64,000 bases of DNA from Schizochytrium sp. TIO01 (lineage: Eukaryota > Sar > Bigyra > Thraustochytrida > Thraustochytriidae): the NCBI GenBank assembly GCA_004764695.1, contig SMSO01000014.1, positions 3,919,148-3,983,147 of the forward strand, in the 5' to 3' direction. Both the position numbers and the translations under genes were made by a program. Position 1 is the stretch's first letter, and each line of letters opens with the position of its first letter. The notes under the pieces were generated by a model. It did no database searches. It was not told the origin of the DNA and worked only from the letters and a program-made list of their open reading frames with translations. This document shows positions 24,292 through 62,244 of the stretch, one piece after another.

Positions 24292-26199
24292 TGATGCATC
24301 TAATTCGGTTCTCTCCATTTCTTGGGTGCTGTATGGATCCAGCTTCTTGCTTCAAGAATCGAACTCCTCCTCTTTCTTTAAAATCGAAAAGAGTACCCCA
24401 GTCCTGAGATACTGAAAATATGATTGTTTTCTTCCACAATTTCAAAAAGAAGAGTGACCAAACAAGCCACGAACTAATTACATCAAGCCTGCGTGCTAGT
24501 CCCTAGCCAGATACAATTTATATGGTCAGCACGCTTCAGGACTACAGCCCACCAAGAAATGTATGCAAATCACAAAACTAGCTCACTTCAAAGAAATCAC
24601 CTTGTTGTAAATCTAATACAGGGTGGCGATACACTACATTTTCAGAAGAACCTAGAAATTCAAGAGAATGTAATAAATGCAATCGCCACTGCCGTGACCC
24701 ACGGCCAACTGGGGGTTGCAAGAGTGAAGTTTTATCCACCTATTCAATTAGACAAACAAGCGAACAATAACAATGAAACCGATTGTCCAGCATTATACAA
24801 CTCCAAGTAAGTTTCGAACAGGACCTTCAAAATCCGGAGCGTGAGAATTTACACACAATAATTCAATAGAGTAAATGCTTAATTGTTTAAATGTGCTTTA
24901 GGCTGTGCACCACTCGATTTGAATAGAGTGAGTGTGCACCCTAACCGAAAATTATGTATGGCTCAAGTCACCATTAGCAGTTTGCGATTTCAATTGTATT
25001 GGGACATCAAGAACAACATGATCACTCCCTAAATTAAACTAGGCATATCTATACACTGTCCAAAAGTATGGTTTATTCGTCGACTTCCGTCTATCCGTGC
25101 AGCCTGACTGAAGATAATGTTCGCTCTATTGAATCTTCCTACAGCCTATGAGATAGGGCATGCAGACTCTTTCCGCAAGTAAAACAATAGGTACCTAGGG
25201 ACTTTTAAAACATCTTTTATTTGTGCATCATACTCTTCTATAGTATATTTACATATGCTTCGGTAGTACTGCTGCCTGTCAATCAGCTATGACTGCACAC
25301 TGCACAAAATTGGAAGTTAGAACAGTTGAAGGGGATTCTGCTTCTTTTTGTCTATCTGCTCTTTCCGAGTCCAGATCAGAAATGGTATACATAGGTATGT
25401 ACCTATAAAATAAAAATTGGACATAATTTAAGTGATCGTTTTGGCTTGAATGTTGCCCTAGTTTAAAGATTTTAATTTATTACCTCTGACTACTAGTGAG
25501 AGCGGAAATTTAAGTTTTTTGGTATCTCAGTAATCAGCTGCCTCGACTTACCTCATTGAAGGTACCCCATACCCTTACTAGATAAACTAATTATGGATAG
25601 GGTGACTTATATGACGTCACGATGATATTTCCAAGTATAGTCCAAAATTGGTGCTATGCTTACCCACTTCATTTATAGTCTTCATTTTCTCGGATATGCA
25701 AACTAGTTAAGCATAGGGTTAGAGACAACTACCTCATGGATTTTATTCTCAAGGTACCGCTTATTATGTTTCCAAATCTGGGGATGAGCAATTAGACAAA
25801 GTGGTATTTAGTATCAAATTAGAACAAACGACATCTGCAAAACCAAAACGCGCTGAGAGTTACGACACGATTAAAAGGTAATTACTCGTATAGATGGCCA
25901 TCCATTGAATTGTCTAATCACTGTACTATTGGGGGATAGCAATCATTAACAGCACGGGCAGAATCTTTGCAAATAGTAAGATCCTCTTGACTAGGTAGAA
26001 TAACAGTCAGGCACAGTCTACATCGAATCAAAGACCGTTTGAAGAGATAGGAGCAAGGCGACAAAGACTTCAACAAGGACAAGCGAATATTTATTAAATT
26101 CGATCTTTCGACATCTCTTCTAACAACTTGTTTCCCAGATTAGTTATTCCTGAGCTCCCATTACTACATGGCAGCCGGGAGGCTTCAGTGCAGTACGAG

Positions 26200-29100
26200 A
26201 TGATGAGTAGAGGTTCCGGTGTCCAACTTACCACTTCAACAACACCTGAGCCTCAGCCTCCTCGTGAAGTCCCTCCTAGACCTTCAACAACAGCAACCTC
26301 TAGCTCGTCAGGATCACAAAATGGAGAACCTTCGACAATTGCAAGCAGAAATCCAGGTGTCCAACTAACCACCTCAACAGCACCTGCGCCTCAGCCTCCT
26401 CGTGAAGTCCCTCCTAGACCTTCAACAACAGCAACCTTTAGCTCGTCAGGATCACAAAATGGAGAACCTTCGACAATTGCAAGCAGAAATCCCGGTGTCC
26501 AACTAACCACCTCAACAGCACCTGCGCCTCAGCCTCCTCGTGAAGTCCCTCCTAGACCTTCAACAACAGCAACCTTTAGCTCGTCAGGAGCACAAAATGG
26601 AGAACCTTCGACAATTGCAAGCAGAAATCCAGGTGTCCAACTAAATAACTCAACAGCACCTGAGCTAAGGACTCCTCTCCAAATCCCTCCTAGACCTTCA
26701 ACAGATTTTGGATTATTAGAATCACAAGATACGGGACCTTTAACATCATCCAAGCCGCAATATACTCATCATTCTCCACGTCTCCTAAGAACAACACCTG
26801 AGCAACACACTTCTCAAGCTCCTCCACGTCCTGTAAGATCAACCTCTGCACTTTCGGGAACAGTACATGGAGAAGCTTCAGAAACGACGAGTATACACCT
26901 TGGTGTCCATTCCTTTTCTACAATAACACCACAGACACCTCAGACCCATTCAACCAATTCGCCAAACCCTTTGTTGTCCTTCATAGCAGAAAGAAACCAA
27001 GCCTCCCGTGCAACCTATGGAAATTCCTATTCATCAGAAGAAGATAAGGAATATTCGGATAGTAGTGATGAAGAAAAGGAGGACGTTTCGACAAACTTTG
27101 AAGGGGCATATAGTCATACACTAGGAGTACTGCCAAGGGAAGCAAATACTATTGGACGCATTTCAACAGAGCCTATGTCCAGAGATTCTTTTGCTGTTGC
27201 ACAGCAGAATCCAATTCATCAAATGCAAAGCAACAATAATCAGAACGAAAATGACAGCGTTAGTTTTCTTTCGGGCCCGGCAACGCCAATTCGTTTACTC
27301 ACAGCAAAAGATCAGAGAAAGTTTCCTTTTGTCGGAGAGCAGGGTGATCTGCAAATCCGTGTTCGACGTCACAAACCTGGAACCCCCGGCAAAGTCCAAT
27401 TGGAAGTACAAGTTATCTCTATTTTTAGACCATATCGATTTGCAAGGCGTCTCATTTACCTTTACTCTGTGTTTCAACTCACAGTTTATCTAGTTGTACT
27501 TACAATTTCTTTTATCCATCAAGTTGCAGCTGGAGTTTATCAAGGAGACTATCATCAGATACTGAAGATCCCGCTGTTGTTTCACTTCATTCACTGTATT
27601 TCTCACATTCTTTGTGTCATTAATCGAGTGCTTGTGGATATTTTGTCAAACTTTGATTACATTCAGAATCTCATTTCACCAGAACATAGACCCTTTATAT
27701 GGTGCGCCGAGGAATTGAATGATGCTGAAGAAAACTCTGCAGCAAAAAGCAAAGACTACAGCTGGGCATGCCAGCTCATTGATGACATTTTCGGTGTTCT
27801 TTTGATAGGGATACCAGCTTTGATTTTAAGCATCTTCCTTATATGCGGTGAATCATGGAAAACCGCTATTCGAAAGTCGCAAATTGGCGCAATTGTCTGT
27901 GCTGGGATAATTGTAGGCGTCTACTTACTGGAACACATTGTGACAGTTTGGAAGTTTATTCGTATTTTCAGAAGACATGATGAAGAATTTGTAGAAAGCA
28001 AAAGCGTCACTCAGCGGTGTTTTTCAGCAATTGCAGCCGTTGTTGAGACAAGGATGGTGTTTACCCTCTCCAGTATAATGTCACAAAAGTCAGGGAAAGG
28101 GAATGAAAAGTATTCAGAACACACTCCCAATGATGAATTCGATTTTCAACGCTTCCCACGCATAATCAGAAAGTTTTATATAGATCCACGAAAAGATGGA
28201 GCAACCACAGTTTTTCAGTCGTTGGCAATACGCACCAGCACTACTCCGATTTCGAGAGCATCCACAGGTTGGAGTAAACACAAGGTGTTTGATATTATTC
28301 TGAGGGTTACTATTGTCATCGCCATAGTCCTCGTTATTATCGCTGTCTCGAAAGCTCTTGGGTATAGAGGTGCTACCCTTGTTATCGTACTCATATTTGT
28401 TGGCTACAAATTAGGTAACGTCGCTTTGGGCTTCTTACGAAAGAACAAAACCGGGACTAGTAGTCTAGTATCGCACCTTATTTGGATTTTTGTACCAGTG
28501 AACACGGAACGGGAATCAGCTGGCTTTATTACTCAACATATATGTGGTATATTCAACTGCGATAAAGACGTCTCCCTAAATGGCTATGAGCGCGTATGGC
28601 TTGCACAACCTAAGAAGAGGTTTTGGCAAGGTTTGCTTTTATTTTCAGTTCTCATGTATATTCTCTTTTCAAGTATATCAATTGCTCAGGAAAATTACTT
28701 GGGAGGCGCGTGGTGTGGAATGTTTATTGGAATTGGATTTGTTTCTTACACATTTTTCTTTTTAGACCCTGAAGGTTGGGCATTTCTGAAAGAAGAGAAT
28801 ACCTTGCAACGAGCTGGTATTGCTGATGAAATCAAAGATTTTACTCCTACGGAGCGCCATGCATTCGACATGTTGACATGGATACGTAAACAAAGAAGCA
28901 TTATGTCTGCGGTCCTATTCATTGCGATTCTCTATATTGGAGCATTACATTTCATACACAGTAACTTTGAAGAAGAAAATGAATATGTGGATAAAATGCA
29001 AGTGGAACCTATGAGTGCTGAGGAGATTGCGCTAAGTATGTCACCCTCAGGATATTGTAATGTTCAAGCTGTCTGGAATGCAAGTGATCCATTTAGTCTG

Positions 29101-29874
29101 GAGCTCCAGGACTATGCTGCGCTAGCCGCTCTCTCGTATGTAAGTCGAGCCAACAGTATCAAAGAAATGCTTACCTCATGGTTCGAAAACTCCACGGTGA
29201 CTGTAGAGCTCTTGCAGTCTGAAGATCTTCCGCCGTCCTGTCAGAAGTCGAATGTTGTATTTCAAGCTTATGGGGCTCGCCAAGAAAGTGAAGAGAGGAC
29301 AATTCTTGCTATACGAGGGACAACAGATTACAAAGACTGGTTTGAAGATATTTCAGTCTGGGGACCAGTTGTGCTTATGGAGATGGCATCCAAAGTACTT
29401 CCCTTCGGCGATACATGGGACTCTTCAATTCCTTCTCTGCTCAGGGCTACAAGCATATTCAACGGAGGAGCCTTCGCTGACTCACTCATGAATTGTATTG
29501 AAGACCTACAGTCCTATAACTCTTCCTGGGGGCAAAAGCCTATTATTCTCACTGGACATTCTCTAGGCGGAGGCATTGCAGCTATTCTTGGAGCTCGACT
29601 TGATCTTCCTAATGTTGTTTTCTCAGCTCCTGGTGTAGAACTTAGCGTCGAGCTTGTGGCTGAAGGCAAACTCGAGAATCTACAGCGAAACACAGTTAAC
29701 GTTATACCAGATGGAGATATTGTTCCTCAGGTTGATCGTCCAACGTTTCATGTGCAACGAATATCGTGCGACGACACATCCGCTCTGCGTCCAGTAAGAT
29801 GTCACAGTATTGTTCAGACAGTGAATAAGCTTGCGGAGTCTTGCGGCGGTGATCGAGTCTTAATGGATTCTTAA
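26200..29874 (+). CDS. Polytopic membrane-anchored class 3 lipase, paralogue A
   Basis: A 1224-residue protein from ATG 26200; the frame opens 24 codons earlier at a TTG. Residues 1 to about 375 are disordered and Pro/Ser/Thr-rich, with a near-perfect 46-residue tandem repeat. The globular/membrane part follows: a conserved entry segment (KFPFVGEQGDLQIRVRRHK), then about nine hydrophobic segments, e.g. LIYLYSVFQLTVYLVVLTISF, VLLIGIPALILSIFLIC and IMSAVLFIAILYIGALHFI. The last about 260 residues are a class 3 (alpha/beta hydrolase) lipase domain: ILAIRGTTDYKDW forms the oxyanion region, GHSLGGG holds the nucleophile Ser, VIPDGDIVPQVD the likely Asp and RCHSIVQT the likely His. Membrane-embedded domains before a lipase domain recall diacylglycerol lipases, but the segment number is higher. 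The product would cleave acylglycerols or phospholipids at a membrane. The substrate and compartment are unknown. Confidence 0.88.
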   Translation: MMSRGSGVQLTTSTTPEPQPPREVPPRPSTTATSSSSGSQNGEPSTIASRNPGVQLTTSTAPAPQPPREVPPRPSTTATFSSSGSQNGEPSTIASRNPGVQLTTSTAPAPQPPREVPPRPSTTATFSSSGAQNGEPSTIASRNPGVQLNNSTAPELRTPLQIPPRPSTDFGLLESQDTGPLTSSKPQYTHHSPRLLRTTPEQHTSQAPPRPVRSTSALSGTVHGEASETTSIHLGVHSFSTITPQTPQTHSTNSPNPLLSFIAERNQASRATYGNSYSSEEDKEYSDSSDEEKEDVSTNFEGAYSHTLGVLPREANTIGRISTEPMSRDSFAVAQQNPIHQMQSNNNQNENDSVSFLSGPATPIRLLTAKDQRKFPFVGEQGDLQIRVRRHKPGTPGKVQLEVQVISIFRPYRFARRLIYLYSVFQLTVYLVVLTISFIHQVAAGVYQGDYHQILKIPLLFHFIHCISHILCVINRVLVDILSNFDYIQNLISPEHRPFIWCAEELNDAEENSAAKSKDYSWACQLIDDIFGVLLIGIPALILSIFLICGESWKTAIRKSQIGAIVCAGIIVGVYLLEHIVTVWKFIRIFRRHDEEFVESKSVTQRCFSAIAAVVETRMVFTLSSIMSQKSGKGNEKYSEHTPNDEFDFQRFPRIIRKFYIDPRKDGATTVFQSLAIRTSTTPISRASTGWSKHKVFDIILRVTIVIAIVLVIIAVSKALGYRGATLVIVLIFVGYKLGNVALGFLRKNKTGTSSLVSHLIWIFVPVNTERESAGFITQHICGIFNCDKDVSLNGYERVWLAQPKKRFWQGLLLFSVLMYILFSSISIAQENYLGGAWCGMFIGIGFVSYTFFFLDPEGWAFLKEENTLQRAGIADEIKDFTPTERHAFDMLTWIRKQRSIMSAVLFIAILYIGALHFIHSNFEEENEYVDKMQVEPMSAEEIALSMSPSGYCNVQAVWNASDPFSLELQDYAALAALSYVSRANSIKEMLTSWFENSTVTVELLQSEDLPPSCQKSNVVFQAYGARQESEERTILAIRGTTDYKDWFEDISVWGPVVLMEMASKVLPFGDTWDSSIPSLLRATSIFNGGAFADSLMNCIEDLQSYNSSWGQKPIILTGHSLGGGIAAILGARLDLPNVVFSAPGVELSVELVAEGKLENLQRNTVNVIPDGDIVPQVDRPTFHVQRISCDDTSALRPVRCHSIVQTVNKLAESCGGDRVLMDS
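26212..26650 (+). repeat. Coding tandem repeat, 138-bp period (46 residues)
   Basis: Three near-identical units plus a diverged fourth start at about 26212, 26350, 26488 and 26626. Each encodes the pattern PGVQLTTSTAPAPQPPREVP and then PPRPSTTAT...GEPSTIASR. The length is exactly a multiple of three and the units are almost identical, so the expansion is recent and in-frame. It carries PPRP-type potential SH3/WW ligands. Confidence 0.93.
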
Positions 29875-31657: not shown

Positions 31658-34600
31658 ATGGAGTCTGGAAAATTAAGCCACAAGTCGCCAGCAAACGCTG
31701 CGAACACTCAAGCAATGCAAGCGAAGACAAAGGGACGCAATGGATTTGCTCGCCCTAATATATCCTCAATACTAGCCAAACAAGCTGCAGAACATGTTCT
31801 TGCTAAAAGTGATCAATCTAAAGATACTCCTCAGAAGAAAAACGATTCTCAACCACGCCCAATTCCAAGAAGGCCTGCTTTGAATGAAACAGCCGGTTCT
31901 CCAAAAGAAGAAGAGCTTAACATAACACACACGATTCCAGGAAAACCTGCATTCACTGCAACAACATCTCAGTCCCCAAAAGAAGCGGAACTTAACCAAA
32001 CACGCCCAGTTCCATCAAGACCTGCACCGGAGTCCTTAAAGCCTGAACCGAAAGCAGAATTAGAAGACTCAACCAACCTCCCTTCGACCCCCAAGATTTC
32101 AGACGTTGAGAGTGAGTCAACACAATCCTTACCGAAAGGTCAAGGAAATGGGCTCTCATTCAATGACTTTGCTCAAAACGCGGCTAATCCTGAGGGTGCT
32201 GATGCTACCCAGGCTCAACCTGATCCTTGCCAAGACTCCTTGCAAGGTGAAATCACTGAGTTCAGATCCATTACTTCTGCAAACCTGATGTTGCCTATAG
32301 CTACTAGTATGTTGCTACAGGACTCTGATGATGAGCATCAAGCACACCAAGAAGTGTCAAATCAAGCAATAGAGCCTGCTGAACGAGTGATCCCACCAAG
32401 GCCTTCGCGCTTTGCTAACTCTACGCCGCATATGCAGACAATGCAAAGAGATCCCGATACAAACTTGGCAAGTATCACTCCAGATGATGACCCAAGCAAA
32501 GGCGAAAACGATAGCTGGATCTCCTTGAACAATGACCAAGTGGAGTTTGGAAAGCCCTACGATGCTACTACACATGGAGACGATGTACCAGAAGACAGGA
32601 CTGAGTTTACGGTGTTTAATAGGGCTGCACCAGATTTAGAAGATCCGGTCAACATTGGCAAGGTAGCTCTACCAAGAATCATCTTTATTGATGGAGCACA
32701 TACACCTAGACGCTTCCCTGTTGACAAAGCTTTGTCATTAGAATACCCCTTTGCAGGTCAAGATGCAGATCTTCAGATTCGTGTGCGACACATTGATCAT
32801 AACAATTCGAATAAGTCTGATTTGATCCGTCTCGAGGTTCAGGCGTTGCGAGATTTTAAGCCATGGCGATTTCTCCGCCGGGTTGCATACTTATACTCCT
32901 TTTTTGAGGTCTTTGTAGTGTGTATTGTATTTACGCTTTCATTTGTTCATCATATAATTGGTGGGTGGGCACATGGCAATGGGGGCGATATTTTGAGGTT
33001 CTTTCTTCTTTTTCACTTTCTCCACGTTATGTCACATGTGATGTGCTCTATTATCCGGGCCTTTGTTGACATCTTTTCTAATTTCCAATATATACAGTAT
33101 GTGCTTGCTGAACGCATCCCAGCATGTTTTCGACGGCTTTTTAAGCTTAAAAGGGGTCTTCAGCCTTTCGATGATGGTTATCATATGAGTATGACGGTTT
33201 TATCTTCTGAAATCAGTCGAATTGTTGACGACGTTTACACAACATTATTCATCGTTAGTCCGATTATTGCGTTTGTAATTTCAGTGTTGTTTTCGCCTTT
33301 CGACATAGCTATTCGCAATTCACAACTGTGCACGATCCTCATGGCTGCGGTGGTAGTTTTGATATACATATTGGATCACCTCATCTCAGTCGGGGACTTC
33401 ATTCACGATTCTCGTACCTCTAATGACAATGCAGCCAAAGTCGTAAGAACGAATAACAACCGAGACTTAAGTCAGAATGATTTGCAGTCACCACCACTTT
33501 CAAAAGCAAGCCAGCAAAAGTGTTTTGGTATCTGCTCAATGGTCAAATCCTGTGGTTCTGCGGTTAGCAGCCTCTTTGAAAAGCGAATGCAGTTTCTTTT
33601 GTCAAGTATTGTGACTCGAAGGGAGAAGCGCCGCCGAGCAAGCAGTTGTAGTAGTGAGAATAACCAAAAAGAGGTGATGTGCAATTGTTGTTACCAATAT
33701 CCATCTCCTGATGGACCCGTGTATTTACCATCTCTTCTCGAGACCACAGGGGGAAGGATGTTTCATGTGTCCAAAGGTATGAAAATGGAACTGAAAGAGA
33801 AGCTGTCATGTTATTCCAGATGCCAAGGTTACTTTCATTTGGGTGTCCGTGTTTTTGTCGTAATATGCTGCGTCGGTATCGTTATTGCAATATTAATCAA
33901 AGGGAAGGCAAGATTTGGAGCGACATTAGTAGGAGTCCTAACTGCTGGCTATGCCACCTATAAGTGGTGTTCCCCCTGGTTTGCAGCAAAGGATGGTTGT
34001 TTGTTTAAGCAAGGGCACTTCTGTGAATTTCTTTTCGGAGTAGTTCTCCCTGCCAGCACAAATAAAATTCTGCTAGAAACCTTTGACAAGGAATACAGAT
34101 GGCAGCGTGTATGGTTAGCTAAACCGAAGCAAAGGCTTTGGGTATTCTTGCTTGTATTTGGGCTAGTGGCTAGCACGTTATGCACCGTTTTTTCTATCCT
34201 TCTGGAGGACGCAGGCACCAAACATATGTGGGCAGTTTTCTCGTCAATTGTTCTGGTCTTATCGTTGGTTTTTTTTCTTGTGGACCCCCAGCCATGGCTA
34301 TCTTTGAGTGATCGTGATATGTTCAGCAAAGCTGGTATACAACGCGATCAAAATCTCACGCCAAAACAGAAGCATTGTGTGAGCATGCTGACATGGAGCC
34401 GCCGCCAGCGTGTGGCGCTGACGCTTCTTTTCTTTTTGTCAATATTATACTTAGCAGGAGTAAACTACATTTACCAGTTCGACGAGCAACAAGGTGCAGA
34501 AGGTGAAATAGACGTTTATCCACGAGAAGGCATTGCCTCTTATGGTGTAGAGCCTTCACCGATGGGCTATTGTAAAGTAAATGTTTTGTGGAATGCGTCG

Positions 34601-35407
34601 AACCCAGTAGAGCTTTCCCTCCAGGATTTCGCGTTCTTTGCGGCGATGGCGTATGAGTCTAGCAAAAGAGACTTGCAGTATCTTACGGAGAGATGGTTTG
34701 AAAACTCGGTTGCATCTGTTGAAATTATTCCAAAGGAAAATATTCCTGATGTTTGCAAGTCACCTGGCATTGAGACTAAGTTTTTTACTGCTTCTCAAGA
34801 CAATTACACACAGGTCATCCTTAGTATTCGTGGTACAACGGCTTGGAGGGACTTTCTCGAAGATATTACCGTGTGGGGGCCAGTTGTCATCATGGAGATT
34901 GCCAGCAAAATCTTGCCATTCGGAGATTTTTGGAGAAGCTCAATTCCTTTTTTGCTTCGAGCCACATCTCTTTTCAGTGAAAGCGAATATGCGGACAAGT
35001 TATCTGGTTGTTTGGACTTTTTGCAGATGGCAAACAACATTACTTTATCAGGAGACTCGCTCATTTTAACCGGGCACTCACTTGGCGGTGGTATTGCAGC
35101 CATTCTGGGGGCTCGTAAGGACGTGCACAATGTTATTTTTTCTGCGCCAGGAGTAGAGCAGACATTAAACATGGACGAGGCTAATGACGAGCGTGAGGCG
35201 CTCCGAAGGAACACCATCAATGTGGTGCCTGATGGCGATCCGTTTCCTACAGTAGATCTTCCCGCATACCACACGCAAAGGATTGAATGTAATGATCAAA
35301 CCTCATTGCGTCTCCTTAGGTGCCACTCAATTCTGCGTACAACTAACGAACTTTCTTCGCTTTGCAATGGAGAGCAATATCTAGGAGCCGAAGAGAACCC
35401 ATACTAG
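31658..35407 (+). CDS. Polytopic membrane-anchored class 3 lipase, paralogue B
   Basis: A 1249-residue paralogue of the preceding gene, same strand, start ATG 31658 (CCCCATGG context), stop TAG. The N-terminal about 370 residues are disordered, with three loose Pro-rich repeats (RPIPRRPALNE, TIPGKPAFT, RPVPSRPAPE, each followed by SPKE-x-ELN or a variant). The conserved core begins at YPFAGQDADLQIRVRHID and has about nine membrane segments. An extra about 70-residue linker with several Cys (MCNCCYQYP) is absent from paralogue A. The C-terminal lipase domain has SIRGTTAWRDFLED, the nucleophile elbow GHSLGGG, VVPDGDPFPTVD and RCHSILRTTNEL, so the Ser-Asp-His triad appears complete. Sequence conservation is strongest in the lipase domain and weakest in the N-terminal tail. 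An ER, vacuolar or plasma membrane lipase is plausible; the location is not determined by the sequence. Confidence 0.88.
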   Translation: MESGKLSHKSPANAANTQAMQAKTKGRNGFARPNISSILAKQAAEHVLAKSDQSKDTPQKKNDSQPRPIPRRPALNETAGSPKEEELNITHTIPGKPAFTATTSQSPKEAELNQTRPVPSRPAPESLKPEPKAELEDSTNLPSTPKISDVESESTQSLPKGQGNGLSFNDFAQNAANPEGADATQAQPDPCQDSLQGEITEFRSITSANLMLPIATSMLLQDSDDEHQAHQEVSNQAIEPAERVIPPRPSRFANSTPHMQTMQRDPDTNLASITPDDDPSKGENDSWISLNNDQVEFGKPYDATTHGDDVPEDRTEFTVFNRAAPDLEDPVNIGKVALPRIIFIDGAHTPRRFPVDKALSLEYPFAGQDADLQIRVRHIDHNNSNKSDLIRLEVQALRDFKPWRFLRRVAYLYSFFEVFVVCIVFTLSFVHHIIGGWAHGNGGDILRFFLLFHFLHVMSHVMCSIIRAFVDIFSNFQYIQYVLAERIPACFRRLFKLKRGLQPFDDGYHMSMTVLSSEISRIVDDVYTTLFIVSPIIAFVISVLFSPFDIAIRNSQLCTILMAAVVVLIYILDHLISVGDFIHDSRTSNDNAAKVVRTNNNRDLSQNDLQSPPLSKASQQKCFGICSMVKSCGSAVSSLFEKRMQFLLSSIVTRREKRRRASSCSSENNQKEVMCNCCYQYPSPDGPVYLPSLLETTGGRMFHVSKGMKMELKEKLSCYSRCQGYFHLGVRVFVVICCVGIVIAILIKGKARFGATLVGVLTAGYATYKWCSPWFAAKDGCLFKQGHFCEFLFGVVLPASTNKILLETFDKEYRWQRVWLAKPKQRLWVFLLVFGLVASTLCTVFSILLEDAGTKHMWAVFSSIVLVLSLVFFLVDPQPWLSLSDRDMFSKAGIQRDQNLTPKQKHCVSMLTWSRRQRVALTLLFFLSILYLAGVNYIYQFDEQQGAEGEIDVYPREGIASYGVEPSPMGYCKVNVLWNASNPVELSLQDFAFFAAMAYESSKRDLQYLTERWFENSVASVEIIPKENIPDVCKSPGIETKFFTASQDNYTQVILSIRGTTAWRDFLEDITVWGPVVIMEIASKILPFGDFWRSSIPFLLRATSLFSESEYADKLSGCLDFLQMANNITLSGDSLILTGHSLGGGIAAILGARKDVHNVIFSAPGVEQTLNMDEANDEREALRRNTINVVPDGDPFPTVDLPAYHTQRIECNDQTSLRLLRCHSILRTTNELSSLCNGEQYLGAEENPY

Positions 35408-43319: not shown

Positions 43320-43945
43320 CAGAATCTTCAAAACTTGCATTTCCTGTATAAGGCCCAATCGCGGGTTGAAACCTAACACGCGACCCAAAGACAATCTCTT
43401 AATCATGTCCTTGGATAGGTAGCGCAAAAGGATGCCTCTGGCGGTGTGGATATCGCAATCGTCTTCATGTTCGATTTTTTGGGGGATAGTTGGAAACCTT
43501 GGATGTTCCGAACTTGTTATGGATGGTACGACATTCATTGCATGGTTTTGAAGCTCAGTCCTCTTGGGAAATAACCAGTTTACACCACTGCCGGGGGAAC
43601 GCTCGGTCCTGCGAATGAACGAGCTAGAGGTCACCAATCTGGCATTTGGCATTCTCGTTTTGCTCGGCGAAGGACACTCTGGCGTAGATAATGACACGGT
43701 CAGTGCTGCGTTGCTCGCCGGAGCAAACCGCAGCCACAGATGTGCCCCAGCATCGTCACCTGCGTATGTGCGATTGTCTATGGGGAGCCCCAAAGGGTAC
43801 TTGCTGAGACGCCAAACTTCTGGTTGAAGTAGTACCTCGCTGGCTTAAGTATTGCAGGTTTGCTTCACTTGAGGTCTTTGGAGTTTGGTGGTTCCTTGGC
43901 CATTCCATTTTCTTACCTAACCTCCACTTCTTGACAAAGACCTGA
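43320..43945 (-). mobile_element. Internally deleted relic of an IS607-type Fanzor element (miniature)
   Basis: A diverged third copy on the minus strand. Reading it in reverse gives, in order: sequence aligning to the leader and the first about 120 codons of the recombinase gene (ATG equivalent at 43908), an abrupt junction near 43560-43600, then the zinc-ribbon/RuvC-III end of the nuclease gene (HTARGILLRYLSKDMI preserved at about 43403-43450) and the conserved 3' tail including GCAAGTTTTG. About 1.5 kb of interior is missing relative to the full copies, including all of the nuclease N-terminal half. Point differences are numerous, so it is older than the two full copies. Its outer ends are approximate. 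Confidence 0.8.
43403..43908 (-). pseudogene. Fused tnpA/tnpB remnant
   Basis: What remains of the coding part of the miniature relic. The recombinase start region is recognisable (the MEWPRN equivalent of MGRPRN) but the HTH is scrambled. The alternative frame that overlaps the recombinase stays open through the deletion junction into the nuclease C terminus, giving an about 167-residue frame with no ATG. RuvC-I and the Glu site are deleted, and the zinc-ribbon cysteines are mostly lost. It cannot encode a working recombinase or nuclease. Confidence 0.75.
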
Positions 43946-44167
43946 ACAATGAATTATAAGATATCATCATTTGTATGTTGTACTGTTTCATAGGGACAGT
44001 GCTACTAGCTACGAGTCAAGCAGTCGAAACTTGCAGCAGTATATTTTTAGAGCTATAACAAAAAACGTTAAAAGTTCGATAACTTATATTTCGATGTGAT
44101 TGTTTCATATTAACCATATATTATGTTTAGTTAGATTATTAATAAGAAGTAGAGGTTAGATAAGAAA

Positions 44168-44866
44168 ATGGGGAGGCCGAGGAACCGACAAGCTCCAAAC
44201 ACTGCAAGTGGAGCAAACCTCGAATACAAACCAGCAAAGTTCTTTCACCGGAAGTTTGGGGTCTCAGCAAGCGCCCTTCGGGGCTGGGCCGACGGCGGAC
44301 GCGTGCGCTTCGCGCGCTTCCCCGGAGGCAAGCGCATCTATGCCAGCGACGATGTTGAGCGCATCTTTGATTGCGGTTCCACCGGCCGCGAGCAACGCAG
44401 CTCTGGATGTACCGTTATCTACGCCAGAGTGTCCTCGGTCAAGCAAAAGGAGGACCTCGAACGCCAGGTTGGCGATCTCCAGCGCGTCTACCCAGATGCT
44501 TCCGCCGTCTACAAAGACATCGGTAGCGGGGTCAATTTCAAACGCCAAGGTCTGTGCTCCCTACTGGACGCCTGTGACCGCGGCGGAATCGGCCAAGTTG
44601 TGGTCATGCACCGCGACCGACTTGCGCGAATCGCAGTCGACCTCTTGGAACACCTTTTCGAAAGAAAAAATGTCAAACTCGTGGTACACGGCCAAGATGC
44701 ACATGCCGGAGACTCAGACACCTTCACCAAAGACCTCCTCGGAATCATCACCGTCTTTGTGGCATCGCATCACGGAAAACGAGCAGCGCAAAATAGACGG
44801 CGACGACGCAGCGAGGAAGAAGCGAGCTCGCACGAAGGCGCGCAAGACCATCAAGAAAGAATATAA
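44168..44866 (+). CDS. tnpA: IS607-family serine recombinase/transposase TnpA
   Basis: A 232-residue DNA recombinase that excises and inserts the element through a 5'-phosphoserine intermediate. Residues about 15-65 are a MerR-type helix-turn-helix (FGVSASALRGWADGGRVRF, then GGKRIYASDDVERIF). The catalytic domain starts at VIYARVSSVKQKEDLERQV; Ser89 of the R-V-S motif is the expected nucleophile. It continues with the expected recombinase motifs SGVNFKRQGLCSLLDAC and VVMHRDRLARIAVDLLEHLF, and ends in the family's C-terminal helix (LLGIITVFVASHHGKRAAQNR). Its length is slightly above the usual about 200-220 residues. The ATG at 44168 is the only one upstream of the HTH. Its last 170 bases overlap the nuclease ORF in another frame. 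The local GC content is markedly higher over 44270-44640 than in the surroundings. Confidence 0.93.
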   Translation: MGRPRNRQAPNTASGANLEYKPAKFFHRKFGVSASALRGWADGGRVRFARFPGGKRIYASDDVERIFDCGSTGREQRSSGCTVIYARVSSVKQKEDLERQVGDLQRVYPDASAVYKDIGSGVNFKRQGLCSLLDACDRGGIGQVVVMHRDRLARIAVDLLEHLFERKNVKLVVHGQDAHAGDSDTFTKDLLGIITVFVASHHGKRAAQNRRRRRSEEEASSHEGAQDHQERI

Positions 44867-46145
44867 CCTTGTCCGTGCCAGAAAGGTTAGGGTATATCCT
44901 ACTAAAGATCAACGTACACAGTTGCTTAAATGGTTTGGTGTCACTAGAAGAGCCTACAATATTGGCGTTGCGTTTCACCGAGACATGGCGAAGGGCGAGG
45001 AAGAAGCCATCAAATTGCATCAAGAAGCGTGCATCAAAAAGGATCCCAAGACGAAGCAGGATTTAGTAGATGAAGATGGGAATCCCCAAACGTATGGTGC
45101 CCTCTATGGAGAAAAGAAAGCCGTTCGATCTAAAGAAAGGAATGGTGCTCCTGAATGGGTTCTCGAGGTCCCACAGGCTATCCGTGATTCCGGGATTCTG
45201 GATTTCTTCAAGGCTATTAACTCGGGACGAGCCAAAAACGAAGAACTCGCTGTACAAAAGAAAGTCCATGAGCGATCTTTCTATAAGTTTCGGAGCAAGC
45301 GTGATGAATCACAGATTTTCGAAGTGAATGCACGTACCTGGAATGCGAAGAAATCAAAGACCTCCGACTTTCTTAAAAAATTCCGAACACGTAAAGAAAA
45401 GTTCCCCGACCAGATTTCGAACGCCATGCGTGTGCAAATGAATCGCCTTGGGCATGTCTACTTCTGCTTCTTACGAGAAGAAAAAAAGCGTCCAATGGAC
45501 CAGGCACCCAAGGCGCACCATGGTGTCATTGCTCTAGACCCGGGTGTTCGCTCGTTTCAGACGATGTATGACGCCGATGGCCGCGCCATTGAATGGGGCA
45601 CAGGGAAAGATTTTAGAACCATATTCTATCTCTGTCGCCGCGTTGATAAGATCCAAAGCAGCATTGATAAAAAGAAAACTGCATCCAGTGATAAAGACAA
45701 TTTCAACACCCCCTTGAAGCGCGCCTTCTATCGCGCCCAACTCAAGATCAAGAACAAGATCACTGAGATTCACCGCAAGCTCGCGCTTTGGCTTTGTGAA
45801 AACTATCGTGTTATTCTCTTGCCCAAATTCGAAACCTCTAAGATGAGCAGGAGGATGGAGCGACGGATATCCAAGAAGTCTGTTCGAATGATGTGTCGTT
45901 GGTCCCATTTTGGGTTTCGCCAGGCTCTCATTCATAAGGCTGAGATGTTCCCGTGGTGCAAGCTTGTTCTTTGCCAAGAAAGTTACACTTCCAAAACATG
46001 CAATGAGTGTGGTACCCTCCACCATAACCTCGGGGCATCCAAGATTTTCCAATGCCCTAATCCCAAGTGCAACCATGTAGCAGACCGTGATGTCCATGCC
46101 GCAAGAGGCATCCTTTTACGCTACCTATCCAAGGACATGATTTAA
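44697..46145 (+). CDS. Fanzor (eukaryotic TnpB-like) RNA-guided nuclease
   Basis: About 482 residues if started at ATG 44697; another in-frame ATG is at 44670. The frame itself is open back to 44208 (a GTG), but that upstream part is the recombinase gene read in another frame. After a basic N terminus (RKKRARTKARKTIKKEY) comes the TnpB-type start of the folded protein (VRVYPTKDQRTQLLKWFG, RRAYNIGV), a REC-like helical region, then the split RuvC nuclease. RuvC-I is ALDPGVRSFQTMYDADG with Asp at 45537-45539; RuvC-II is LLPKFETSKM with Glu at 45831-45833; RuvC-III is ADRDVHAARGI (DRD 46083-46091). Between II and III lies a zinc ribbon CNEC...CPNPKC. All key residues are present. By homology to TnpB and Fanzor it would cut DNA next to a TAM motif under guidance of RNA from the element's 3' end. 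Size and IS607 association match the Fanzor2 type. Confidence 0.9.
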   Translation: MHMPETQTPSPKTSSESSPSLWHRITENEQRKIDGDDAARKKRARTKARKTIKKEYNLVRARKVRVYPTKDQRTQLLKWFGVTRRAYNIGVAFHRDMAKGEEEAIKLHQEACIKKDPKTKQDLVDEDGNPQTYGALYGEKKAVRSKERNGAPEWVLEVPQAIRDSGILDFFKAINSGRAKNEELAVQKKVHERSFYKFRSKRDESQIFEVNARTWNAKKSKTSDFLKKFRTRKEKFPDQISNAMRVQMNRLGHVYFCFLREEKKRPMDQAPKAHHGVIALDPGVRSFQTMYDADGRAIEWGTGKDFRTIFYLCRRVDKIQSSIDKKKTASSDKDNFNTPLKRAFYRAQLKIKNKITEIHRKLALWLCENYRVILLPKFETSKMSRRMERRISKKSVRMMCRWSHFGFRQALIHKAEMFPWCKLVLCQESYTSKTCNECGTLHHNLGASKIFQCPNPKCNHVADRDVHAARGILLRYLSKDMI

Positions 46146-46270
46146 AAAAATCATTTCATTGAGTCGCGGGTTAGTCTAACTAGCTCGTGATGAAGTCTTA
46201 GCTCTATGAAATGCAAGTTTTGCAAATTTTATAGTTTAAAATCTAAGAGAGACGCTGTTCCACAGGTTTT
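46146..46270 (+). ncRNA. Putative guide RNA (omega-RNA/fRNA) scaffold plus flank-derived guide
   Basis: The 103 bases after the nuclease stop are conserved in copy 2 though non-coding, and similar sequence survives in the relic. They hold an imperfect inverted repeat, CATTTCATTGAG (46152-46163) against CTCTATGAAATG (46202-46213), 11 of 12 pairs. Inside is a small GTTAG-T-CTAAC hairpin (46170-46180). TnpB and Fanzor guide RNAs come from exactly this position: the 3' end of the nuclease gene through the element's right end into the flank. The scaffold probably starts inside the ORF. The guide would be the bases immediately after 46248. Location is by analogy; folding and expression are not shown. 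Confidence 0.5.
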
Positions 46271-46585: not shown

Positions 46586-46746
46586 AGCTATGCGTATGCT
46601 ACGCCTCCTACTCTCAGTAGGGTAGTGCTAACGGCGTTGTTTGTTGATAGAGGCAGAAGTATGGAGCGCCGCCTAATCATAGCAGTATGTTGATGTTTGT
46701 ATTTGTTTGTTTGTTTGTATTTATTTGTATTTGTTTGTATTTGTTT

Positions 46747-46936
46747 ATTTGTTTGTTTGTTTGTTTGTTTGTTTGTTTGTTTGTTTGTTTGTTTGTTTGT
46801 TTGTTTGTTTGTTTGTTTGTTTGTTTGTTTGTTTGTTTGTTTGTTTGTTTGTTTGTTTGTTTGTTTGTTTGTTTGTTTGTTTGTTTGTTTGTTTGTTTGT
46901 TTGTTTGTTTGTTTGTTTGTTTGTTTGTTTGTTTGT
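46747..46936. repeat. (TTTG)n microsatellite
   Basis: About 47 near-perfect TTTG units, with imperfect TTTGTATTTG units extending from about 46690 to 46955. It sits 170 bp upstream of the MED13 start codon, so it is probably promoter or 5' UTR. Poly(FVCL) frames here are artefacts. Confidence 0.97.
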
Positions 46937-47104
46937 ATTTGTTTGTTTGTTTTTTAGTCTCTCTTTGTGATTCTCTTTGATGTGATTGTGATTGACAGCG
47001 TTGATTGACAGAGAATCAGCAGAAATCAGAGAAACAGAGAATCAGAGAGCACCTCGATCCTCGCTCTCTACTTCGCGGCAGGTAGAGAAGCAAGCTCCGG
47101 CGCG

Positions 47105-58922: not shown

Positions 58923-59393
58923 TCTTCCAGTTTCTTTTCAAGGTTGGTCAACTCTATGCCCTATCCTATCTCACCAGAAGAACCTCGCTTGACTACTGTC
59001 AAGTCACCACGTGTGCAGATCGACGCACAGCAACGCCAATTTAGTCCCTTGCAAAGGTGGCTAGCCTCGTCGTGGATAGCGATCTATAATCTAGAGTATA
59101 TCCGGGACTTTAAAAGTTCATAATAATTCGTTATACTAAAATATAAATATGTAGGCCATCATTGGTATTTATAACGCCAGAACAGTTTAATAATATTTTT
59201 TCCAAAAGTAAGAGAACAGAGTATGATTGAGCTTAATGTAGAGGTTATGTGTTCTTATGCACACATGTGTTAAATACCCCCAACAAAACTTTGTGAATGC
59301 CCTTCAAGCTCATATACATAGATTCACGAATCAAGAAGAATTGTTTTGTTTTAAAGATAAAATAGGGCTTCATGTAATTGTTGATATTTGACC
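58923..59393. other. Promoter side of the alpha-galactosidase gene
   Basis: 470 bp between the start codon and the right end of IS607 copy 2. AT-rich beyond 59100. No ORF seen; the sequence immediately left of 59394 is the candidate guide-derived flank of copy 2. Confidence 0.6.
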
Positions 59394-59500
59394 TCTTAGT
59401 TTTTAAACTATAAAATTTGCAAAACTTGCATTTCATAGAAGGAGCAAGACTCCATCACGAGCTAGTTAGACTAACCCGCGACTCAATGAAATGATTTTTT
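59394..59500 (-). ncRNA. Putative guide RNA scaffold of copy 2
   Basis: Mirror of the conserved 3' tail of copy 1. CATTTCAT/ATGAAATG arms (59429-59436 and 59486-59493) are retained, but the inner right arm differs: GGAG-TCTTG-CTCC forms a new local hairpin through substitutions and a 3-nt insertion. Nearby mononucleotide run length also differs. Its guide would be read from bases just below 59394 (GGTCAAATATC on the minus strand). Prediction by position only. Confidence 0.45.
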
Positions 59501-60949
59501 TTAAATCATGTCCTTGGATAGGTAGCGTAAAAGGATGCCTCTTGCGGCATGGACATCACGGTCTGCTACATGGTTGCACTTGGGATTAGGGCATTGGAAA
59601 ATCTTGGATGCCCCGAGGTTATGGTGGAGGGTACCACACTCATTGCATGTTTTGGAAGTGTAACTTTCTTGGCAAAGAACAAGCTTGCACCACGGGAACA
59701 TCTCAGCCTTATGAATGAGAGCCTGGCGGAACCCAAAATGGGACCAACGACACATCATTCGAACAGACTTCTTGGATATCCGTCGCTCCATCCTCCTGCT
59801 CATCTTAGAGGTTTCGAATTTGGGCAAGAGAATAACACGATAGTTTTCACAAAGCCAAAGCGCGAGCTTGCGGTGAATCTCAGTGATCTTGTTCTTGATC
59901 TTGAGTTGGGCGCGATAGAAGGCGCGCTTCAAGGGGGTGTTGAAATTGTCTTTATCACTGGATGCAGTTTTCTTTTTATCAATGCTGCTTTGGATCTTAT
60001 CAACGCGGCGACAGAGATAGAATATGGTTCTAAAATCTTTCCCTGTGCCCCATTCAATGGCGCGGCCATCGGCGTCATACATCGTCTGAAACGAGCGAAC
60101 ACCCGGGTCTAGAGCAATGACACCATGGTGCGCCTTGGGTGCCTGGTCCATTGGACGCTTTTTTTCTTCTCGTAAGAAGCAGAAGTAGACATGCCCAAGG
60201 CGATTCATTTGCACACGCATGGCGTTCGAAATCTGGTCGGGGAACTTTTCTTTACGTATTCGGAATTCTTTTAGAAAGTTGGAGGTCTTTGATTTCTTCG
60301 CATTCCAGGTACGTGCATTCACTTCGAAAATCTGTGATTCATCACGCTTGGTCCGAAACTTCTAAAAAGATTGCTCATGGACTTTCTTTTGTACAGCGAG
60401 TTCTTCGTTTTTGGCTCGTCCCGAGTTAATAGCCTTGAAGAAATCCAGAATCCCGGAATCACGGATAGCCTGTGGGACCTCGAGAACCCATTTAGGAGCA
60501 TCATGTCTTTCTTTATATCGGACGGCCTTCAGTTCTCCACCAAGGGCCCCATGTGTTTTTGGATTCCCATCTTCATCTACCAAAACCTGCTTCGTCTTGG
60601 GATCCTTTCTAATACACGCTTCTTGATGCAATTTGATGGCTTCTTCCTCGCCCTTCGCCACATCTCGGTGAAACGCAACGCCAATATTGTAGGCTCTTCT
60701 AGTGACACCAAACCATTTAAGCAACTGTGTACGTTGATCTTTAGTAGGATATACCCTAACCTTTCTGGCACGGACAAGGTTATATTCTTTCTTGATGGTC
60801 TTGCGCGCCTTCGTGCGAGCTCGCTTCTTCCTCGCTGCGTCGTCGCCGTCTATTTTGCGCTGCTCGTTTTCCGTGATGCGATGCCACAAAGACGGTGATG
60901 ATTCCGAGGAGGTCTTTGGTGAAGGTGTCTGAGTCTCCGGCATGTGCAT
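59501..60949 (-). pseudogene. Fanzor nuclease, interrupted by one nonsense codon
   Basis: Counterpart of the nuclease at 44697-46145. An in-frame TAG at 60362-60364 replaces the TAT tyrosine codon of the intact copy just after KKVHEQSF, separating the N-terminal/REC-like half from an intact 273-residue C-terminal half that keeps RuvC-I, -II, -III and the zinc ribbon unchanged. From KFPDQ to the stop the protein is identical to copy 1. TAG also ends lipase paralogue B in this window, so the codon is not recoded. Restart at the internal Met downstream (60322) would give a RuvC-only fragment. Confidence 0.88.
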
Positions 60950-61478
60950 CTTGGCCGTGTACCACGAGTTTGACATTTTATCTTTCGAAAAGGTGTTCCA
61001 AGAGGTCGACTGCGATTCGCGCAAGTCGGTCGCGGTGCATGACCACAACTTGGCCGATTCCGCCGCGGTCACAGGCGTCCAGTAGGGAGCACAGACCTTG
61101 GCGTTTGAAATTGACCCCGCTACCGATGTCTTTGTAGACGGCGGAAGCATCTGGGTAGGCGCGCTGGAGATCGCCAACCTGGCGTTCGAGGTCCTCCTTT
61201 TGCTTGACCGAGGACACTCTGGCGTAGATAACGGTACATCCAGAGCTGCGTTGCTCGCGGCCGGTGGAACCGCAATCAAAGATGCGCTCAACATCGTCGC
61301 TGGCATAGATGCGCTTGCCTCCGGGGAAGCGCGCGAAGCGCACGCGTCCGCCGTCGGCCCAGCCCCGAAGGGCGCTTGCTGAGACCCCAAACTTCCGGTG
61401 AAAGAACTTTGCTGGTTTGTATTCGAGGTTTGCTCCACTTGCAGTGTTTGGAGCTTGTCGGTTCCTCGGCCTCCCCAT
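60780..61478 (-). pseudogene. tnpA: TnpA serine recombinase, interrupted by one nonsense codon
   Basis: Counterpart of the recombinase at 44168-44866. It keeps the same ATG, HTH and Ser motif, but the AAA lysine codon after LLEHLFER is TAA (60978-60980), cutting the protein to 166 residues and removing the last about 65 residues including the C-terminal helix. The same base change alters Glu to Asp in the overlapping nuclease frame. One other substitution (Val to Ala) is seen in RVYPD/RAYPD. The element is probably unable to move itself, though copy 1's recombinase could act on its intact ends. Confidence 0.88.
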
Positions 61479-61592
61479 TTTCTTATCTAACCTCTACTTC
61501 TTATTAATAATCTAACTAAACATAATATATGGTTAATATGAAACAATCACATCGAAATATAAGTTATCGAACTTTTAACGTTTTTTGTTATA

Positions 61593-62244
61593 CCTGTTCC
61601 TTTTACACTTATAGTTAACAATAGACCACTACTAGCTTCGGGTTTAAATCAAATTTAAAATGTGGTTCTGTGGACATATTGTTAGATCATTGTTCTGTAG
61701 AGTTTCTTCTAGCAGCGAAGCGCTCTTCAGATCGAAGCTGTAACAGGGATATACGCTTCTTTGAAACTGAAGTTGAGACGAAAAGGAAACCTCAGAAGGA
61801 ATTATACTCTGAGTCTCAATTGATTTTCAAGGTGTCGTTACCGCGTTGCAGAGAACACCATATGATAACGCTGAAGGTCAGGAATAGAAGGTTGCTCCAT
61901 ATGAGACAATGAAATTTAAAAACGAAAATCTCGTCTGCTCCCATTGAAACGACGCAAACAATAGACTCTGTTGGCAGTTCATGAATTCTGACCCCAAGGG
62001 TCCACATTTTGGCATGAGAAGACCAATGCATATTGTTTGTTTCAGGGTTTTCATAAAATTACAATATCTTTTGACAATACCACAATATAATCAGATGCGT
62101 GGTGAAAGGACATTTGATTTGGGTGGCGCTGTGCCGTATTAAACTTTATCCCGATTGCTCTGTTTAAACATGTAAATGTTTGTTATCATGATATTTGCTG
62201 TATTACTGCTTATGGTTTACTCTTGACTTGCAAAGTTCAGTAGA
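61593..62244. other. Intergenic region, 0.65 kb
   Basis: Between copy 2 of the IS607 element and the 3' end of the DOMON/b561 gene. AT-rich with no supported ORF. Confidence 0.6.

Follow-up and report, generated by a model that had tools for sequence, protein, structure and literature searches.

Fanzors are eukaryotic RNA-guided nucleases whose life inside transposons is poorly known, and the locus analysed here raises the question of how such a nuclease is encoded, carried and moved in a eukaryotic chromosome. The locus lies in a 64,000-nucleotide stretch of DNA from Schizochytrium sp. TIO01 (the window: contig SMSO01000014.1, positions 3,919,148 to 3,983,147; G000:C13:3919148-3983147), on a contig of 7.46 Mb in an assembly of 64.06 Mb and 37 contigs, and it holds an IS607-Fanzor2 element (copy W1, locus L011) with two overlapping plus-strand frames, first that of an IS607 transposase (TnpA) and second that of a TnpB/Fanzor nuclease. 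Elements of this kind are already known; the family of W1 is a genuine eukaryotic IS607-Fanzor2 transposon that has moved recently. What seems to be new, as far as sequence comparison goes, is the multi-copy evidence for AG/CAG targeting, together with an overprinted nuclease N-terminus that appears common to the pro-Fanzor and Fanzor2 relatives examined. As a whole, we hold it to be very probable that W1 is a recently mobile IS607 transposon of the eukaryotic nucleus, with TnpA and Fanzor2, whose nuclease has its N-terminus written within tnpA, in the +1 frame.

The features on which the argument depends, in window positions, are the following.

44053..46249, plus strand: complete IS607-Fanzor2 element W1, 2,197 bp, without target duplication (from aligned-copy junctions and related empty sites of three other insertions)
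44049..44052, plus strand: left junction, AGAG of the target, AG being the inferred crossover dinucleotide (left-junction table, empty sites)
44168..44866, plus strand: tnpA, IS607-type serine recombinase, 232 residues (NF033518; ISC1904 and ISC1926 TnpA)
44496..46145, plus strand: Fanzor2 nuclease, 549 residues from the predicted start ATG 44496, +1 frame relative to tnpA (PF07282 and PF12323 above cut-off; start from the ATG-to-PYW spacing in homologues without overlapping tnpA)
44496..44866, plus strand: stretch read in two frames, as TnpA C-terminal part and Fanzor2 N-terminal extension (open +1 frame, motifs, homologue comparison)
44559..44567, plus strand: PYW motif of the extension, in 23 of 23 aligned copies (TnpA reads SLL)
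44676..44687, plus strand: NSWY motif of the extension (TnpA reads KLVV), with SWY in 22 of 23 aligned copies and deleted in L031
45537..45545, plus strand: RuvC-I Asp in DPG, Fanzor fingerprint 1
45978..45980, plus strand: alternative RuvC-II Glu directly before the zinc ribbon (ESYTSKTC), Fanzor fingerprint 2
46089..46091, plus strand: RuvC-III Asp (RD)
46146..46249, plus strand: right end, candidate guide-RNA (reRNA) scaffold with hairpins and pseudoknot UCUUAG:CUAAGA, ending ..CTAAGAG; the guide would begin at 46250 (fold of 46131-46250 at z -4.5; pair counts)
59393..61593 (right bound approximate), minus strand: second copy W2, 98% identical over 2,100 nt, both frames broken
43323..43932, minus strand: old decayed relic, head to head with W1 (pieces 43323-43450 and 43786-43932)

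The two proteins of the element

The data support W1 as a complete IS607-Fanzor2 element in a eukaryotic chromosome. A preliminary description of the window had placed a complete element at 44054-46248, and profile searches now match both proteins, with ends (44053-46249) at most 1 bp from those proposed. TnpA reaches 143.1 bits against the NCBIfam IS607 transposase model NF033518 (cut-off 110) and 70.5 bits against Pfam Resolvase (cut-off 23.3), and its catalytic domain matches solved IS607-type proteins (ISC1904 and ISC1926 TnpA) in the Protein Data Bank (PDB). The nucleophile is presumably Ser89, in YARVSS (codon 44432-44434). The match to the MerR-type domain PF13411 stays at 17.1 bits, under the cut-off of 21.6, and the NF033518 alignment begins at residue 26.

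The nuclease frame scores above cut-off in two Pfam families, Cas12f1-like_TNB (PF07282; 49.9 bits, cut-off 26.3) and HTH_OrfB_IS605 (PF12323; 35.8 bits, cut-off 21), and its closest solved relative is L79 of mimivirus (PDB 9b0l, E 7.6e-19). The Fanzor/pro-Fanzor fingerprint consists of a RuvC-I DPG and an alternative RuvC-II Glu six residues before the zinc ribbon (PMC10711439; here and below, papers are cited for those parts of their text that were available). Since both parts are present in the W1 nuclease and invariant in nine aligned sequences, we assign it to Fanzor2, which would likely make it an RNA-guided DNA cutter; the fingerprint is common to the window, phage and plasmid proteins. 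Weighing against the assignment, the frame falls under two NCBIfam cut-offs, guided_TnpB (NF040570; 91.7 against 100) and IS607_TnpB (55.7 against 350). The RuvC Asp/Glu/Asp triad and zinc ribbon noted earlier are thus confirmed, with all three acidic residues invariant in 9 of 9 aligned sequences and PF07282 above its cut-off. A single-sequence AlphaFold2 model of the nuclease had a mean confidence (pLDDT) of 37.9 and was not used.

Copies, insertion sites and the right end

Recent mobility of the family is supported by its copies within the genome. A protein search found at least 85 matching stretches, 16 of which (W1 included) cover at least 92% of the query at 93-100% identity and without stops, and a DNA search found at least 86, all these counts being lower bounds. 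We aligned 23 copies, namely 22 loci (one of them W1) and W2, the left end being absent in L026 and the right end in L027 and L032. Their flanks differ, which makes each copy an insertion of its own (11 nt at the left junction are common to L025 and L032), and identity within the element, compared in 18 copies, is between 89.7% and 99.8%. Older copies, at about 67-75% identity and mostly with stops, indicate that the family has long been resident in the genome. The relic reported earlier was recovered as two minus-strand pieces with 76% and 80% identity to the element (43323-43450 and 43786-43932), W1 lying about 30 bp from its inferred left end. L021 likewise lies within an old relic and L018 about 290 bp from one, so that young copies are seen beside or inside old relics of their own family.

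The distribution of substitutions suggests that the moving lineages were kept functional. At informative sites of the 23-copy alignment, changes at codon positions 1/2/3 number 58/42/129 of 425 in the nuclease core and 15/7/19 of 210 in tnpA, whereas singletons, which we took as mostly later than insertion, show little periodicity (78/85/104 of 425 and 41/40/48 of 210, respectively) and about equal rates in both genes. Codon periodicity at informative sites, with little in singletons, therefore argues for purifying selection on the mobile lineages; on the other side, exchange between copies could also account for the lower divergence of the tnpA region.

It could be held that the family is now dead, or was moved only by an enzyme from elsewhere, all copies being passive. 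At least one intact frame is wanting in 15 or 16 of the 23 aligned copies (L022, with TnpA intact and the nuclease C-terminus altered, is ambiguous), including the second copy described earlier, which was located, on the minus strand, but is broken in both frames (a TnpA stop after 166 residues, a nuclease-core stop after 138 codons). Additionally, five copies (L023, L024, L025, L027 and L032) carry the same 294-nt insert in the early part of tnpA and occupy different sites, which suggests help in trans; trans mobilisation of these copies probably occurred. The insert carries a (CCTAA)n tract at exactly the same tnpA place in all five dispersed copies, and we rejected it as an intron, its ends not being GT-AG and the TnpA translation stopping within it, and read it as a TnpA-breaking insertion. 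Against a dead family stand the seven copies that keep a 232-residue TnpA with an uninterrupted nuclease core (L011, L012, L013, L016, L019, L020 and L021) and the pairs, up to 99.8% identical, found at different sites, and we consider a passive family unlikely. Of the earlier description of a live transposon, the part concerning recent movement is backed by near-identical copies with differing flanks and by related empty sites, and its limits are the broken W2 and a W1 stem-loop 2 shortened by 4 nt.

Querying the genome with the flanks of 18 copies, each pair joined, gave related unoccupied sites for three insertions (L021, W2 and L012). For L021, inside its relic, another relic reads ..ATAG^ACACTA.., as against ..GCAG[element ..CTAAGAG]ACACTA.. 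at the occupied site. For W2 only the left flank was matched, with ..GAACAG in common and the right side aligning with about 30 extra bases, and for L012 two relatives read AACAATAATATT, the occupied site having AACAG and, on the opposite side, TAACATT. These comparisons imply that no target duplication is formed and that AG stands at both junctions, in keeping with a serine recombinase whose exchange spans two identical bases; together with the junction table, they point for this family to an exchange over the identical dinucleotide AG, not GG.

Among the 22 left junctions tabulated (letters copied by eye; L026 and L030 left out), AG is found in 19 and CAG in 18, the latter with p 5e-15 against a background of 0.10. 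The right flank begins with A or T in 21 of 22 cases. W1 itself has GAG. Three junctions speak against the rule in lacking AG, namely L020, L022 and L029, the last with CGG. As CAG precedes 18 of the 22 left ends, we predict it to be the target motif (TAM) of the nuclease. The 4-9 nt from the target AG to the conserved CAAAAA differ even among very similar copies, and this variable stretch looks like old flank or filler captured at each hop. Decayed copies are suggestive of an earlier exchange dinucleotide. Eleven of 17 older right ends, read by eye, finish in AAGTG and not AAGAG (left out were L039, for which there were no letters, L077, whose end is of the young type, and L080, whose end is unrelated), and among 20 other left ends aligned, the ten older readable ones show TG (5), CG (3) or TA (2) at the matching place. 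All of the latter are TG or one transition from it, which fits a switch from TG in the old subfamily to AG in the young one.

The right end may provide the guide RNA. The last ~120 nt fold with z scores of -4.5, -5.7 and -6.0 in three of the four copies examined, and the loop of hairpin 2 (UCUUAG) is complementary to the terminal CUAAGA, a pseudoknot of a kind reported for IS607 reRNAs (PMC10711439). Pairs are kept at 99.2% in 17 young ends (38-44% when slid) and at 89.0% in 16 old ends (29-47% when slid), pairing having been counted on the same sequences from which the structures were derived. Several results weigh against the structure: covariation is not clearly above shuffles (its score is reached in 248 of 500 for young and 73 of 500 for old ends), consensus folding of the old ends by themselves, de novo, gives only 8 pairs, and L029, where part of hairpin 1 is lost, folds no better than shuffles (z -1.15). 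In Rfam the right end has no match (at E up to 5 there is only a below-threshold microRNA match, inside the coding region), and no family reaches its gathering score in four relatives. The right end is thus best described as a guide-RNA-like structure with a pseudoknot, a candidate reRNA. Since a 4-nt deletion removes most of hairpin 2 in W1, this copy may itself be a poor source of guides.

A probable nuclease N-terminus within the transposase gene

Both open reading frames (ORFs) had been described earlier as intact, which holds for W1. It had gone unnoticed that the nuclease frame is open in +1 through the whole of tnpA and contains no ATG from 44703 up to the conserved core; any ATG start therefore lies inside tnpA, and the N-terminus would overlap that gene. 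A Fanzor2 N-terminal segment of about 100-125 residues, with the motifs PYW and SW[FY], appears to be encoded there in the +1 frame.

The most telling comparison is with two viral homologues without an overlapping tnpA, in which the segment is an ordinary single-frame protein, reading SPYWTD..TNSWFTVK in L118 (a 174.8-kb IMG/VR contig, whose three neighbouring ORFs are without Pfam matches) and KPYYND..KSWFSSIK in L133 (a 42.6-kb contig, phage-like by gene reading). The tnpA frame carries 14-15 stops in the former and ten in the latter, and the recombinase motif was not seen on the forward strand, the strand looked at, of either locus. Searched against about ten sequences, a profile of the overprinted extension built without the window row picks up L133 with 25.6 bits and L118 with 20.3 bits; when each was letter-shuffled 1,000 times, its observed score was never reached. 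The distance from ATG to PY is 15 residues in L133, 19 in L118 and 21 in the window, and on this spacing we predict the nuclease start at ATG 44496. At L133 the pro-Fanzor-like ORF without overlapping tnpA (L133:1483-2853) has lost its zinc-ribbon cysteines and kept the extension.

The frame is also open across relatives. Of 41 examined, five were dropped, their match starting far into the protein (L105, L111, L113, L117 and L124), and the remaining 36 are not independent, L119-L123 being near copies and single genomes giving several loci. Between codons -110 and -12, 35 of the 36 are free of stops in the nuclease frame and 23 in the tnpA frame, and all 36 are interrupted in the +2 frame; the stops total 3, 37 and 188, respectively. 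The tnpA frame has stops in 12 of the 35 relatives whose nuclease frame is open, and in the only relative that is not open, L118, the nuclease-frame stops lie upstream of its own start. Among ten viral loci, the recombinase motif was found in seven (L131, L134, L135, L136, L137, L143 and L144; L134 and L135 have identical coordinates and scores), always in frame -1 of the nuclease, as in W1. Control IS607 elements differ: in the three with an adjacent TnpB, this lies in the +2 frame with an overlap of 4-7 nt, and in five the +1 frame is not stop-depleted (P 0.26-0.70).

Could the open +1 frame nevertheless be a by-product of TnpA codon choice, with the nuclease starting near its core by a frameshift or a non-ATG codon and the upstream frame left untranslated? 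A number of observations lean that way and weigh against overprinting. In the window alone, the open frame has a P of up to 0.008 under codon models, which is weak after choosing among frames. Per locus, +1 stop depletion against synonymous shuffles reaches P <=0.05 in 17 of 31 loci, with the others up to 0.974, these high values arising partly from an ORF that was short or not tnpA. Substitution rates in the overlap (19 pairs) follow the constraint on TnpA, so that the extension would be weakly constrained outside its motifs; the 22 rows of this rate analysis were picked for an open frame, and their zero stops are a selection effect. Furthermore, viral L131, L134 and L135 show two nuclease-frame stops, upstream of their extension (by a rough anchor), the +2 (TnpB) frame of control L129 is mildly stop-depleted (3 against 6.7, P 0.047), and a profile of the extension alone does not detect mimivirus L79 in the PDB. 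L118 used as query aligns with L79 through its N-terminal TNSWY. The motifs PYW and SWY, retained by 23 and 22 of the 23 aligned copies, are found intact less often among ten decayed old ones (PYW in 4, SW[FY] in 3).

Two further lines were dropped as proof. The synonymous-shuffle profile test, in which 9 of 9 lineages exceed 300 shuffles, is not frame-specific, as three of four other frames also exceed theirs, which again suits a by-product. The low synonymous divergence of tnpA was set aside, all three codon positions being reduced at informative sites, because shallower divergence or exchange between copies explains it equally well. What a by-product does not account for is the segment standing as an ordinary protein in two viral homologues without overlapping tnpA, the frame open in 35 of 36 relatives even where the tnpA frame of 12 is stopped over the same stretch, and the absence of +1 depletion from the five controls. 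On this evidence we judge a by-product improbable; the overprinted segment looks like a real part of the nuclease, and the overlap architecture appears old, common to cyanobacterial pro-Fanzors and viral relatives.

Two copies of the family join the frames. L018 has lost 1 nt from its tnpA segment, which fuses the TnpA and nuclease frames into one of 642 residues, and in L028 the segment is 10 nt shorter, the start codon is lost and the joined frames give 518 residues.

In the available literature on Fanzor or IS607 TnpB frame overlap (supplements and subscription papers being outside its scope) we found no report of +1 overprinting. As for the sources themselves, in the parts available, IS607 ORFs are said to overlap often (PMC6188088), overlapping and separate types are mentioned (PMC9956272), and the terms N-terminal, overlap, frameshift and start codon are all absent from the main text of PMC10711439.

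Relatives, proposed mechanism and significance

W1 has a eukaryotic-type gene on either flank, one for a WD40 propeller protein and one for a MED13-like protein, and the setting among eukaryotic genes proposed earlier is in this way upheld. The gene content also includes a patellin-like CRAL-TRIO/GOLD protein and long open frames, which might suit an algal or other protist host; a RuBisCO search gave 0 matches, and an 18S sequence pattern likewise had none. A 138-bp tandem repeat (26206-26703) lies in a long ORF (26128-29874) with a lipase-like domain at its end, and the ORF at 31658-35407 is of similar length with a weaker lipase/hydrolase match. Just 3' of the element there is a long TTTG-type tandem array (46690-46980).

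A scan of 84,980 prokaryote genomes (GTDB) gave 32 loci, all with cyanobacterial titles and at least 11 of them from two genomes (Arthrospira sp. PCC 9108 and Oscillatoria sp. PCC 10802), and further relatives were found in a Microcoleus phage, a Trichormus plasmid and IMG/VR contigs. Viral-contig scans with the window proteins alone gave no matches, a profile including relatives being needed. Bacterial or viral contamination of the assembly, which the bacterial type of the proteins and the uniformly cyanobacterial GTDB relatives might bring to mind, is a negligible prospect given copies on many contigs of 1-10 Mb, old decayed relics, the eukaryotic neighbours of W1 on its 7.46-Mb contig and phage, plasmid, GTDB and IMG/VR searches in which no near-identical copy was found, the relatives listed being only 23-42% identical.

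IS607-Fanzor2 elements are already known from eukaryotes and giant viruses (PMC3627910, PMC10711439); Bao and Jurka (2013; PMC3627910) described Fanzor2 from IS607-like elements, ACa-1 and ISvMimi_1 among them. As in W1, their ACa-1, ACa-2, CRv-1 and ISvMimi_1 combine TnpA_IS607 with Fanzor2 and a RuvC and zinc-ribbon motif, and have no terminal inverted repeats or target-site duplications. In comparison with these, the W1 family is multi-copy, recently mobile and nuclear, with an inferred AG/CAG target and an older subfamily that has another end dinucleotide, and in it the overlap of the nuclease N-terminus with tnpA is recognised. Cyanobacterial pro-Fanzors (PMC10711439) share with W1 the DPG, the alternative Glu and a nuclease frame open in +1 through the tnpA region, at about 30-40% identity. 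Mimivirus L79 is the best solved relative, reached at its N-terminal TNSWY by the L118 query and missed by the extension-only profile. Bacterial IS607 (PMC6188088) is like W1 in its serine recombinase, 2-bp exchange, lack of target duplication and often overlapping ORFs, and differs in its dinucleotide, GG instead of AG; the three control IS607 elements have TnpB in the +2 frame with a short overlap, as against the long +1 overlap of W1. RAGATH-18 reRNAs are the subject of PMC11061315.

The following mechanism would bring these observations together. TnpA would excise the element and insert it by exchange over AG, mostly at CAG^W targets and without target duplication (the sites are observed, the chemistry is taken from the family). 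The guide RNA would comprise the structured right end and the adjoining host flank, and the predicted TAM of Fanzor2 would be the CAG left at the empty site. By analogy with work on TnpB and Fanzor, the nuclease may cleave sites that lack the element, which would help the element to be retained or copied. The second frame could be translated from the internal start ATG 44496, by frameshift, by splicing or from a separate transcript. In a broader perspective, we lean towards a pro-Fanzor/Fanzor2 clade marked by the +1 overprinted nuclease domain, in which transposase and nuclease would have been tied since a cyanobacterial ancestor, the domain surviving in a single frame after loss of tnpA, and in which the present element would be still mobile, its switch from TG to AG accompanied by a matching change of target motif.

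A genome with many young and old copies offers natural empty sites, target motifs and guide-RNA variants for comparison, and the family makes direct experiments possible. If the nuclease N-terminus does lie within the transposase gene, a construct beginning at the canonical core would be about 100 residues short. Additionally, the overlap would link the evolution of both proteins, and may bear on why one IS607 lineage yielded the Fanzors.

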